From assembly GCA_023252195.1 (NCBI GenBank), contig JAHEXI010000010.1, forward strand, positions 1-64,000: a DNA stretch of 64,000 bases, in the 5' to 3' direction. How positions within the stretch are numbered: the first letter of the stretch is position 1; each line of letters begins with the position of its first letter. Shown piece after piece: positions 16,249 to 43,874 of this stretch. A program made the translations under genes and the position numbers. The notes below the pieces were generated by a model. That model was not told the origin of the DNA. It ran no database searches and was given only the letters and a program-made list of their open reading frames with translations. This stretch comes from Pseudonocardiales bacterium (GTDB lineage: Bacteria > Actinomycetota > Actinomycetes > Mycobacteriales > Pseudonocardiaceae).

Positions 16249-16316
16249 TCGTCGTGAACTCGACGTCACGGACGTTTCCGTCGACAAAAAGGTCCGTGGT
16301 GTCGAGTTCACGACGA
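16249..16316. repeat. 25-bp inverted repeat hairpin
   Basis: The arms 16249-16273 and 16292-16316 match at 23 of 25 positions (TCGTCGTGAACTCGAC at the base), with an 18-base loop. It lies just after the small membrane gene, a terminator position, but lacks a T-run. A dispersed repeat is an alternative reading. Confidence 0.7.
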
Positions 16317-16645: not shown

Positions 16646-16710
16646 GTGATCGTTGTTTGTGTGCATTTAGCGACACGATATGTCGTCCGAGGCACACAAA
16701 CGGTGATCAC
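16646..16710. repeat. 65-bp palindromic repeat, family II copy 1
   Basis: Two 30-base arms (16646-16675, 16681-16710) flank a 5-base loop. The outer part pairs GTGATC and GTTTGTGTGC. The right arm closely matches the right arm of the element at 42829-42889 (about 23 of 28 positions). The right end contains the GTG start of the S53 gene, so the hairpin could affect its translation. Confidence 0.75.
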
Positions 16711-18349
16711 GCGGCGAGGGCGGCCAGCGAGTGCCGCCGTCGGGTTAGTCGCGATCGCTTTCGTGGCGTCGTGCAGTGGGGCGGGAGCACCAGGCGGTCC
16801 AGCCAGTCCGCACACGCCACCGCAACCGGCGCCGCAAGTGCAACCCAACCCGGATCACGTCAAGAAGCTCACCGCAGTCCTCGATAACATGACCAAGAAG
16901 TATGCGCAGTACGCCGAATCGTCCCCGGGTCCGCAGGACATCGTCGACTACAATATCGGCGACTTGTGGAAAAAGGGCATCGACGGCACCGGAACGACCA
17001 TCGCGCTGGTCGAAGGCTGGGACGATCCGCAAATCAACGATGTCATCAAGAAGTTCGACCAGGAATATGGTCTACCTGATCCGGAGATCCAGACCATTTA
17101 TCCTTCCGGTAACGGTCACCTGCCCGCTCAGTGCCCGCCTGGAATGGTCGCGCTGGGCAGCTACGGTTCGTGTGAGGCGTGGCACAGCGAGCTTGAGCTC
17201 GACGTGGAAGCGGCCCATCTGATCGCGCCGTATGCGAAGATTCTGATCACCGCCACTCCGGCGGACAGCGAGATCACCGATGACGCAGCGAGCCAGGTCG
17301 CGCCCCCGGAGATGATGCAGGCACTGGAGTACATCGGTAAGAATCACCTGGCCGACGCCATCTCGATCAGCGACGGAACGGGTGAAAGCACCTACAGCTA
17401 CGGCAAGGCGGAAATCACCGCACAGGACCCAGGTCTGCTGTCCGCGGCGGCCGCGGGCATCCCGGTGGCGGAAGCGACCGGCGACTGTGGCGTGGTCCAG
17501 AACCTCGCGGTAGCCAACGCGCAGTGCGGCAACACCACGCAAACGCCGGATACCGGGGCATGGAATGACTCTCCCTGGGTCACCGCGGTCGGCGGCAGCG
17601 TTCCCAATCTCGACACCACAGGACGGCGACTCGGGCCCGACCCGTTGTGGGATCGCGGCAAGTTCTCCGAGGGCGCCGGCTATTCAGCGGTGTACCCGCG
17701 ACCGGCCTACCAGGACCGGGTCGGTTCGCTGACCCGGTCGGTTCCCGACATCACCATGGACGCCCAGAGTGGGACGTCGGAGGCAGCGCCGCTGTTCGCC
17801 GGGGTGCTCGCGCTGGCCGCGCAGCTGAACCATGGCAGCGTCGGTCCCATCAACAAGGTGCTCTATGACGTAGTGGGCTCGCGCGGAGCAGCCGTCGGAA
17901 TAGCCGACGTCGTATCCGGGAACAACTCGGTGCCCGCAGGAACGGGGTCCATTCCCGGGTTCACCGCCGGTACCGGATTCGATGTGGCCAGCGGGTGGGG
18001 AACGATCGACGCGAGCAGGTTCGTCCCGGAGCTCGTCACGGCAGTGCGCGCGCATAACGGGGCTGACTCCCAACAACGCGAGGCGGCCGACGCATTGGCG
18101 CGGTTGCAACACAGCATCGTGCTTACCGCTAACGGTGGTTCGACGTACGTGTTGGCGGCGGGCTTCCTGCCCCGACATCCCGTCGAGCTGGAAATCGACG
18201 GCAACCACGTTGCCACCCTTACGGCCAACACCCTGGGATCAGTCTCTTACGCCGTCGATCCGGCGCTGGCGAAACTGCCCCGGGGCGGCCACACGCTCAC
18301 CCTGAAGAGCATGTTGTTGACCGCGACGGAGAACTTCCCGTCGGGCTGA
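16703..18349 (+). CDS. Sedolisin (S53) protease, lipoprotein
   Basis: GTG at 16703 gives a signal peptide with basic start (ITRRGRPA), a hydrophobic core and lipobox VASC, so the protein is probably lipid-anchored outside the membrane. Catalytic residues of serine-carboxyl peptidases are visible: Glu163 and Asp167 in SELELDVEA, oxyanion Asp261 in ATGDCG and nucleophile Ser359 in GTSEAAPLFAG; the calcium-site region GFDVASGWGTID follows. No large N-terminal activation domain is seen, unlike the second S53 gene at 36060. About 100 C-terminal residues form an Ig-like extension (LAAGFLPRHPVELEIDG). The 3' end overlaps the convergent transporter gene by 53 bases. Confidence 0.82.
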   Translation: MITRRGRPASAAVGLVAIAFVASCSGAGAPGGPASPHTPPQPAPQVQPNPDHVKKLTAVLDNMTKKYAQYAESSPGPQDIVDYNIGDLWKKGIDGTGTTIALVEGWDDPQINDVIKKFDQEYGLPDPEIQTIYPSGNGHLPAQCPPGMVALGSYGSCEAWHSELELDVEAAHLIAPYAKILITATPADSEITDDAASQVAPPEMMQALEYIGKNHLADAISISDGTGESTYSYGKAEITAQDPGLLSAAAAGIPVAEATGDCGVVQNLAVANAQCGNTTQTPDTGAWNDSPWVTAVGGSVPNLDTTGRRLGPDPLWDRGKFSEGAGYSAVYPRPAYQDRVGSLTRSVPDITMDAQSGTSEAAPLFAGVLALAAQLNHGSVGPINKVLYDVVGSRGAAVGIADVVSGNNSVPAGTGSIPGFTAGTGFDVASGWGTIDASRFVPELVTAVRAHNGADSQQREAADALARLQHSIVLTANGGSTYVLAAGFLPRHPVELEIDGNHVATLTANTLGSVSYAVDPALAKLPRGGHTLTLKSMLLTATENFPSG

Positions 18350-37655: not shown

Positions 37656-37743
37656 GGGTCGCGCGAACCTGGGAGGCGCCTCGACGCCGGCGCCGTGGTC
37701 CAGCAGACCAAGCTCGAAGGGACCACCACAGGTGACCACCAAA

Positions 37744-37785
37744 AGTGAGCCGTCACCGTGCGAATACGCACGGTGACGGCTCACT
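37744..37785. terminator. Perfect 19-bp hairpin, family I copy 2
   Basis: AGTGAGCCGTCACCGTGCG at 37744-37762 pairs perfectly with 37767-37785 around AATA. It stands between convergent genes, so it probably ends transcription from both sides. Its sequence is related to the palindrome at 33563-33624. Confidence 0.85.
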
Positions 37786-37842
37786 GTCGATGATCAAGCT
37801 GCGGGGACGGCAGACCGGGTTATCCGTGGCCCCGGGCAAGCG

Positions 37843-42828: not shown

Positions 42829-42889
42829 GATCACGGTTTATGTGTCGTGGGCGACATGTTCTGTCGTCTGAGTCACACAACCCGTGATC
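42829..42889. repeat. 61-bp palindromic repeat, family II copy 2
   Basis: Arms 42829-42856 and 42862-42889 pair at 21 of 28 positions around a 5-base loop. GATCACGG ends and inner TGTCGTCTGAG-CACACAA match the element at 16646-16710. It covers the tyrA stop codon, a terminator position for that gene. Confidence 0.75.
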
Positions 42890-43874
42890 ACGCCGTGAGC
42901 TCGACCTGGCAGCGGGTGCCCTCGAGGCCAACGACGCGGGCGCCTTGGTGGCCGAGGTCGCGTAGCTGGGCTAGTGCGTCGGGAGACCCCAGCTCGACGT
43001 ACACAGTGTCGATGTGGACGGTGTTGTCGCGTGCTGTGTCGCGGACCGTGTCGAAGGCCCGGCGGGCGAGGTGGCCGGCTTGGATGGTGGCGGTCAGCCC
43101 ACCGGTGGAAGCCAGCGAGCCGCGGGCCGCGCCCAACCGGCCCAGCGCGTCATCCACCGCCGCCAGCAGCGCGTCGCGGTTACCCTCACACATCGCCCGG
43201 ACCAGTTCGGGCCGCGACCCGGCCACCCGGGTGCCATCGGTGAACGAACCCGCGGCCAGTGCCATCGCGAGCGATCCGCCGTCGGCGCCGACCGAGGCGA
43301 GCACCGCGGCCAGCAGATGCGGCAGGTGCGAGACTCGGGCCACTGCCGCGTCGTGGTCCGCGGCGCCGGCCGGCACCACGTGCGCCCCGCACTCCAGCGC
43401 CAACCCGGCGACCTGTCCCCACACCACCGGGTCGGCGCCGTCGTCGCTACCCACCACCCAGGGAGCCCCGGTGAACAGCGTCGCCGATCCGGCTGCCCAG
43501 CCCGAGGCCGACGTCCCCGCCATCGGGTGCCCGCCGACGTAACGGGCCGCCGGGGTGCGCCGGGCCACCGCCGCCGCGACTGGTTGCTTGACGCTCACCA
43601 CGTCGGTCAGGCGGCAGTACGGGGCGTGCCGGGTCACCATCGGCAGCACGTCGACCACAGCGGGCAGCGGTACCGCGAGCACCACCAGCGCGTCATCGTC
43701 GGCCAGCGCGTCCTCGATCGAGGAGGTGGCATCGAAGCCAGCGTCCCGGACCGCGGCGACGACAGCAGCAGACCTCGCCATTCCCCGGACCTTCCACCCG
43801 GCGGCGTCAGCTGCGCGCAGCAGCGACCCGCCGATCAGGCCCAACCCGATGACACACAGCGTGCGATCACTCAT
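42888..43874 (-). CDS. tyrA: Prephenate dehydrogenase
   Basis: TyrA oxidises prephenate to 4-hydroxyphenylpyruvate for tyrosine. The N-terminal NAD(P) fold has VIGLGLIGGSLLRAA, followed by VVLAVPLPAVVDVLP. The catalytic region has VSVKQPVAAAV, GGHPMAGTSASGW and ARVSHLPHLLAAVL. Length is 328 residues. ATG at 43874 overlaps the M20 gene by four bases. In mycobacteria the gene also lies close to tadA, supporting the assignment. The C-terminal region after residue 285 may hold an ACT-like remnant. Confidence 0.9.
   Translation of the reverse strand: MSDRTLCVIGLGLIGGSLLRAADAAGWKVRGMARSAAVVAAVRDAGFDATSSIEDALADDDALVVLAVPLPAVVDVLPMVTRHAPYCRLTDVVSVKQPVAAAVARRTPAARYVGGHPMAGTSASGWAAGSATLFTGAPWVVGSDDGADPVVWGQVAGLALECGAHVVPAGAADHDAAVARVSHLPHLLAAVLASVGADGGSLAMALAAGSFTDGTRVAGSRPELVRAMCEGNRDALLAAVDDALGRLGAARGSLASTGGLTATIQAGHLARRAFDTVRDTARDNTVHIDTVYVELGSPDALAQLRDLGHQGARVVGLEGTRCQVELTA

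Follow-up and report, generated by a model that had tools for sequence, protein, structure and literature searches.

Two palindromes in the window, that is, the whole stretch of 64,000 nucleotides analysed here, are copies of one dispersed family, which we read, with a probability of about three in four, as a non-autonomous, MITE-like palindrome that inserts at GATC and that in one genome, G003, also acts as the homing site of a group II intron. The evidence lies in the family itself, in the co-variation of its arms, in empty sites that hold a single GATC, in a bias of the copies towards gene 3′ ends and in intron junctions at one internal point of the palindrome. In other words, a retroelement appears to have colonised a mobile palindrome family at one fixed internal point.

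The palindromes of the window and their family

The unit is 61 nucleotides long and consists of GATC, a 24-nucleotide arm, a 5-nucleotide loop, a second 24-nucleotide arm and GATC. The first copy, W1, occupies positions 16648–16708 of the forward strand, as judged from the sequence and the family model, with its 53-nucleotide core of arms and loop at 16652–16704 and the loop itself at 16676–16680 (family alignment and empty sites); by analogy with empty sites elsewhere, its left GATC (16648–16651) and right GATC (16705–16708) are probably a duplicated target site. The second copy, W2, lies at 42829–42889, also on the forward strand (sequence, family model and comparison of the tyrA locus), with its core at 42833–42885 and its loop at 42857–42861 (family alignment and the same comparison). 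Counted from GATC to GATC, W1 forms 20 and W2 forms 21 of 28 possible Watson–Crick pairs, and among all 61-nucleotide frames of the window no others reach 20 pairs in this geometry of 28 pairs and a 5-nucleotide loop. The two copies are identical at 45 of 61 positions, where 200 shuffles reach at most 23. The initial annotation, which had described two related elements with GATC ends, a five-base loop and right arms agreeing at about 23 of 28 positions by eye, is borne out in each of these respects, the right-arm agreement being 24 of 28 when counted.

A covariance model was trained on nine copies, namely W1, W2 and seven from outside the window. W1 and W2 score 82.7 and 73.8 bits with it, values which are no evidence in themselves because both copies trained the model, such that the independent evidence comes from the further sites. 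In the genome from which the window is taken (G000), the model gives 72 strand hits that correspond, after merging by hand, to at least 37 sites, the figure being a lower bound since 150 of 560 candidates were scored; among these sites, an intron interrupts L072, and L071 has another interior. With W1 as a DNA query, ten other places in the same genome are matched, W2 not being among them. Across the genus, all 11 genomes examined have hits, with between 11 and 89 strand hits per genome; outside it, a weak hit appears in one of the 20 other genomes of the same survey. In a family-level draw of 150 genomes with stricter filters, eight reach an E value of 1e-5, of which seven are of the same genus and the eighth, G122, is of another. 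The profile search of this genome and its relatives which had been suggested at the outset therefore finds at least 37 sites in the former and hits in 11 of 11 genomes of the genus; the outcome that had been held to speak against a family, with no more copies and no conservation of pairing, did not occur.

An exact 19-base pattern searched for in named genomes is found in 18 stretches, 16 of them titled Pseudonocardiales or Pseudonocardiaceae; 15 of the latter are also recognised by the model, and L018 retains the right half only. The remaining two are a weak match (L013, 21.4 bits) and a stretch with no model match (L019). Near-identical copies occur at several loci of G007 and of G003. The overall picture is that of a family which is old in the genus, with young subfamilies in single genomes. 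The copy in G122 (L300, G122:C168:183-246) has the GATC ends and outer arm of the family, together with a different inner stem and a centre that is one base shorter. L071 of G000 likewise combines these ends and this outer arm with another inner stem, and the two point to a wider group.

Two other palindromes of the window may be mentioned alongside these. A near-perfect one at 16249–16316, about 330 bp upstream of W1, has 34-nucleotide arms and no loop, and matches the family model at chance level (15 bits, E 0.11). Another, at 37732–37797 with no strand assigned, has 30-nucleotide arms, a 4-nucleotide loop, GATC at one end and GACC at the other, and is possibly a distant relative (23 bits, E 6.5e-4); its own arms match each other, and two further places in the genome match it weakly and in part.

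Pairing and co-variation of the arms

The arms were compared in a pool of 117 sites, 37 from G000 and 80 from nine relatives, the latter drawn mostly from the best-scoring hits such that the sample leans towards well-kept copies. Sixteen sites (those of other lengths, L071 and L064) were left out, leaving 101 aligned copies, in which GATC is near-invariant at both ends. Over the 28 pairs, 89.1% of the cells are paired as against 82.0% after shuffling, and 237 cells show double changes, as against 113.8 in the shuffled sets, with 17 of the pairs showing such changes. The covariation score is 0.242 (shuffled 0.126), a value reached by none of 500 shuffles; one of 500 shuffles is as high in further pair types, and pairing drops to 24–44% in slid control alignments. 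The conservation of the pairing, which had been made a test of the proposed family, is therefore seen as co-variation of the arms across the 101 copies.

Eighteen of the 101 copies are perfect 28-bp palindromes, with no Watson–Crick mismatch, and the others carry up to ten mismatches, commonest at positions 21–25. Moreover, a six-base variable segment is exactly matched in 31 copies (shuffled mean 1.8, maximum 7) and occurs in 16 kinds, which argues against a single event, though the kinship of the copies inflates these counts. The arms would have to be re-matched somehow, which would account for the appearance of new, exactly matched variable segments. The ordinary explanation for re-matched arms is template switching in quasi-palindromes, and the 16 kinds of segment document, in a natural setting, the way in which palindromes maintain matching arms. 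In many diverged copies the conserved positions are kept and the variable segments are no longer paired, which hints at selection beyond mobility.

With the orientation set by pair 25:41, the other mismatches comprise 74 G.T and 60 A.C, with no clear bias towards the former, such that the palindrome is to be read as DNA and not as RNA; the use of one strand as RNA was rejected on these wobble counts. Apparent chimeric arms in G004 were similarly set aside, as they proved to come from a single subfamily read in opposite orientations (L251, L253 and L255 against L254).

Probable insertion at GATC and position relative to genes

At the tyrA locus, the element lies between two GATCs in G000 and G008, and a single GATC stands in its place in G005. 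The same locus in G006 is free of the element and GATC is absent from it, and in G001, G003 and G007 there is no element and the intergenic parts are not alignable. The sole exact empty site is L297 of G007, where exactly one GATC has the same AT to its left and right; also in G007, small changes mark the empty sites L272 and L281, and L277 is an internal-deletion remnant. The difference between filled and empty sites is 57 bp, which is the 53-nucleotide core and one extra GATC. A single GATC is also present at the element-free orthologue of L060 in G006, and the comparison of L049 with L153 likewise gives one GATC, but with an extra ATGATC on the filled side. Target-site duplication of the kind associated with MITEs is therefore found at L297, at tyrA in G005 and at L060 in G006. 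Three element-free orthologues have no GATC (tyrA in G006, L032 in G006 and L060 in G008), four are internal-deletion remnants (L030, L041 and L059 in G005 and L047 in G008), and two pairs, L062 with G005 and L064 with G008, are ambiguous. At the W1 locus in G006 the element is absent and the upstream region is not alignable. The flanking sequence at L049 and at L147 and L153 of G008 has many repeats in G008, with and without the palindrome.

The suggestion in the initial annotation that this might be a mobile palindrome is supported by the at least 37 sites, the varying copy numbers in the genus, the single-GATC empty sites and the near-identical subfamilies. The steps of such movement would be as follows. 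The core would insert at GATC, most often within TGATCA, and duplicate the GATC; a putative transposase would drive the process by recognising the arms and cutting GATC with a 4-bp stagger. The insertions found lie mostly just behind stop codons, with the terminal TGATC overlapping the stop in some cases. Half-site scans of the 11 genomes of the genus, in which the isolated halves were opened in part, revealed no transposase and no parent transposon or other longer DNA element that shares these ends. The longer structures opened in this search for a related insertion sequence were palindromes split by group II introns. Insertion into the centres of older palindromes was rejected: of eight genome groups, G008 has a flank complementarity slightly above the shuffled level (8 of 200 shuffles as high), and the other seven are not above it.

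Some copies in G007, G003 and G001 are embedded in larger repeats and may have been multiplied along with them. These outer repeats are what would be expected if the palindrome spread only within larger repeats or by recombination, and never alone. Yet the larger repeat of G007 occurs both with the palindrome (L235-L238 and L232) and without it (L297, L272 and L281), and the flanks of the 37 copies in G000 are mostly unrelated by eye, all of which makes such an exclusively passive spread very improbable. The G007 repeat (L232, L235-L238, L272, L277, L281 and L297) forms an inverted repeat of its own, its ends resembling TAGTACGGCAGCCGCA, and a GATC near its middle is the insertion place of the palindrome in some copies.

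Bacterial MITEs are short, intergenic, multi-copy elements with inverted arms and a target duplication, and without an open reading frame. The GATC palindrome resembles them in its inverted repeats, target duplication, lack of coding capacity, copy number and intergenic position, and differs from them in that the palindrome fills the whole element bar the 5-nucleotide loop, in its fixed GATC target and in that no parent element was found in the half-site scans. Equally, it is like REP sequences in being a short extragenic palindrome in many copies. That it is of the REP type and is moved by a RAYT/Y1 transposase via single-stranded hairpins is nevertheless an improbable account, as GATC flanks the filled sites on both sides and is single in the empty ones, and Y1 elements are not known to make such a target duplication. 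The wobble pairs, without clear strand bias, also tell against this account, to be set against an extragenic position and a size that falls within the 21–65 bases used for REPs in the available part of PMC1525189. In its working, the GATC palindrome is comparable to a MITE and also to a REP into which other elements insert, without being filed as a proven member of either class. Among the matches listed from the open-access literature, outside which most subscription journals lie, there is no GATC palindrome of this kind.

Genes were called with a purpose-written, codon-usage gene finder. By their neighbours, the 37 sites of G000 divide into 20 tandem, 10 convergent, 5 divergent, 1 intragenic and 1 unassigned. 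A single copy out of 37 lies within a predicted gene, as against 927 of 1193 GATC sites. Within 30 bp of a gene 3′ end there are 21 of the 37 copies and 25 of 266 intergenic GATC sites (Fisher p ~9e-11 for 21 of 36 intergenic copies), whereas the corresponding figures for gene 5′ ends are 4 of 37 and 29 of 266; the control sites in these comparisons are any GATC, not TGATCA, from the same loci and the window, with a few counted twice where loci overlap. Seven sites have a gap of −4 to the stop codon, such that the stop is the TGA of the terminal TGATC.

The positions next to genes in the window had been part of the initial annotation, which placed a start codon under one palindrome and a stop codon under the other. 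The latter holds: a putative tyrA-like gene (42888–43874, minus strand) has its TGA stop, at 42888–42890, overlapping the terminal TGATC at the right end of W2. The same TGATC is present at the empty tyrA locus of G005, so the insertion kept the stop. Such overlap means that an insertion can occupy the end of a gene and leave the protein unchanged. As for the start codon, a GTG at 16703–16705 does lie in the right end of W1, in frame with a putative S53-type peptidase gene with a lipoprotein-like N-terminus (16703–18349, forward strand), and it is the likely start of that gene. G006, which lacks W1 here, has a GTG further inside the S53 frame, at a place where G000 reads GCG.

The crowding of copies at gene 3′ ends is also what would be expected of a hairpin maintained by the host whose main role would be that of a (bidirectional) transcription terminator or 3′-end stabiliser, and for which mobility would be old or incidental. 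The core positions kept in diverged copies are in keeping with such a role, as are the several sites at which other species, too, seem to have the element, most of them as judged by gap length, with L032 and L049 being filled in G008 by alignment. However, copies between tandem genes show no preferred orientation (9 with, 11 against, by hand count), neither RNA strand is favoured by the mismatches, and single-GATC empty sites and deletion remnants exist. Nor is a T-run seen by eye after the stem in the 25-nucleotide flanks of the 37 copies. A primarily regulatory hairpin is thus possible and, on this evidence, doubtful.

A group II intron within the palindrome

Returning to the palindrome as a mobile element, the scan for half-sites revealed that contigs of G003 are broken near the palindrome end, and that their ends carry the 3′ end of a group II intron (Rfam RF00029, 49.6 bits). 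One copy, L122, has both ends, with a match to RF01999 (98.9 bits), a GTGTG 5′ end and a 423-residue reverse transcriptase (RT), which matches TIGR04416 at 394 bits and both RVT_1 and GIIM of Pfam; no endonuclease domain is among the Pfam hits of this protein. Against solved structures, the top match is a group II intron RT (142.6 bits), with the GsI-IIC RT at 136.7 and LtrA at 102.8. The G003 element therefore has the GUGYG 5′ end, the domains DV/DVI and the RT–maturase reading frame of a group II intron, the RT having been read in L122.

The searches for intron junctions scored at most 40 candidates each, so the numbers of junctions are minimum values. All 13 of the 5′ junctions found in G003, and one in G000, follow the left arm at GATCRCNGTTTGKG or a close variant of it, and 14 of the 15 3′ ends found in G003 continue into the palindrome, the exception being C26. 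The link between intron and palindrome rests on G003, with 13 of the 14 5′ junctions and all of the counted 3′ junctions. In this regard, the proposal that the palindrome could be an RNA target is supported by a group II intron at the same internal position at many G003 loci. In W1 the equivalent point of insertion, between GATCRCNGTTTGKG and TG, is at 16661/16662 on the forward strand (its mirror on the minus strand being 16694/16695), and in W2, by reference to the G003 junctions, it is at 42842/42843 on the forward strand. Both points are unoccupied, and no group II intron is found in the window at Rfam thresholds.

Thirteen of 14 3′ ends were compared (that on C152 was left out), and their intron ends are identical over up to 80 nucleotides, some contigs starting later, whereas the next 46 nucleotides, which are palindrome halves, have a mean identity of 90%, down to 83%. 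It follows that the intron came to pre-existing palindromes that already differed from each other. The idea that intron and palindrome travel as one DNA element, with the intron as cargo, would fit the finding that nearly all G003 intron ends are in the palindrome; the identical intron ends beside differing palindrome halves, and the 15 intron-free palindromes retrieved from the same genome, make it most improbable. More probably, the intron would home by reverse splicing into the palindrome, through base pairing to the 5′ arm, perhaps with the assistance of the hairpin in single-stranded DNA. A candidate EBS1, CGCAAA, picked by eye in a D1 loop of L122, is missing from the corresponding alignment position of L126, a G000 intron with a similar 5′ exon, so no EBS1–IBS1 pairing is claimed.

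Homing of a group II intron to a mobile element reportedly occurs with RmInt1 in ISRm2011-2. With the G003 intron, too, a retroelement has a different mobile element for its site, with the distinction that the site is here a 61-nucleotide palindrome without genes. Folding of the 60 nucleotides upstream of the insertion point at 14 junctions gives a mean z of −0.11 against letter shuffles, with L177 alone at −2.5, while three stretches folded downstream give −2.9, −7.5 and −7.7. Group II intron targets named in the accessible part of a review include homing sites, terminators and attC sites (PMC4424553), and for group IIC introns a stem–loop upstream of the insertion point is given as the rule (PMC7923331, in the portion available). 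As far as these portions go, the G003 intron resembles group IIC and IIC-attC introns in a protein without an endonuclease domain hit, in the GsI-IIC RT among its structure hits and in a hairpin in the target (PMC4424553, PMC7923331), and differs in that its hairpin is downstream, with no unusual fold upstream (PMC7923331).

A closer parallel for the target is found in REP sequences, which the available part of PMC1525189 describes as dispersed extragenic palindromes that other mobile elements interrupt at a single exact point; REPs are known there as targets of IS elements, and two of nine copies of a group II intron of Pseudomonas putida KT2440 are associated with them. The GATC family is, within what that part of PMC1525189 covers, alike in being a dispersed palindrome interrupted at one exact point, and unlike in that the palindrome holds nearly all G003 intron ends found, at a single point of a single arm, and itself shows insertion with GATC duplication. 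The Pseudomonas putida case is therefore a partial precedent for an intron that lies in a palindrome; among the matches listed from the open-access literature, the available part of PMC1525189 holds the only other group II intron at a dispersed palindrome.

A more elaborate, two-tier system can be imagined, in which snap-back synthesis rebuilds a symmetric palindrome at each copying and so gives each subfamily its own matched segment, and in which an intron lineage dependent on the palindromes enters the 5′ arm with the hairpin downstream and possibly lends them its RT. We consider this unlikely as a whole.

In G000 there are introns at C31 and C23, whose reading frames are shortened or interrupted. 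The locus on C23 (L125, G000:C23:81500-87500) holds two apparently nested group II introns, one within the presumed RT gene of the other, the outer intron having its 3′ end inside a copy of the palindrome.
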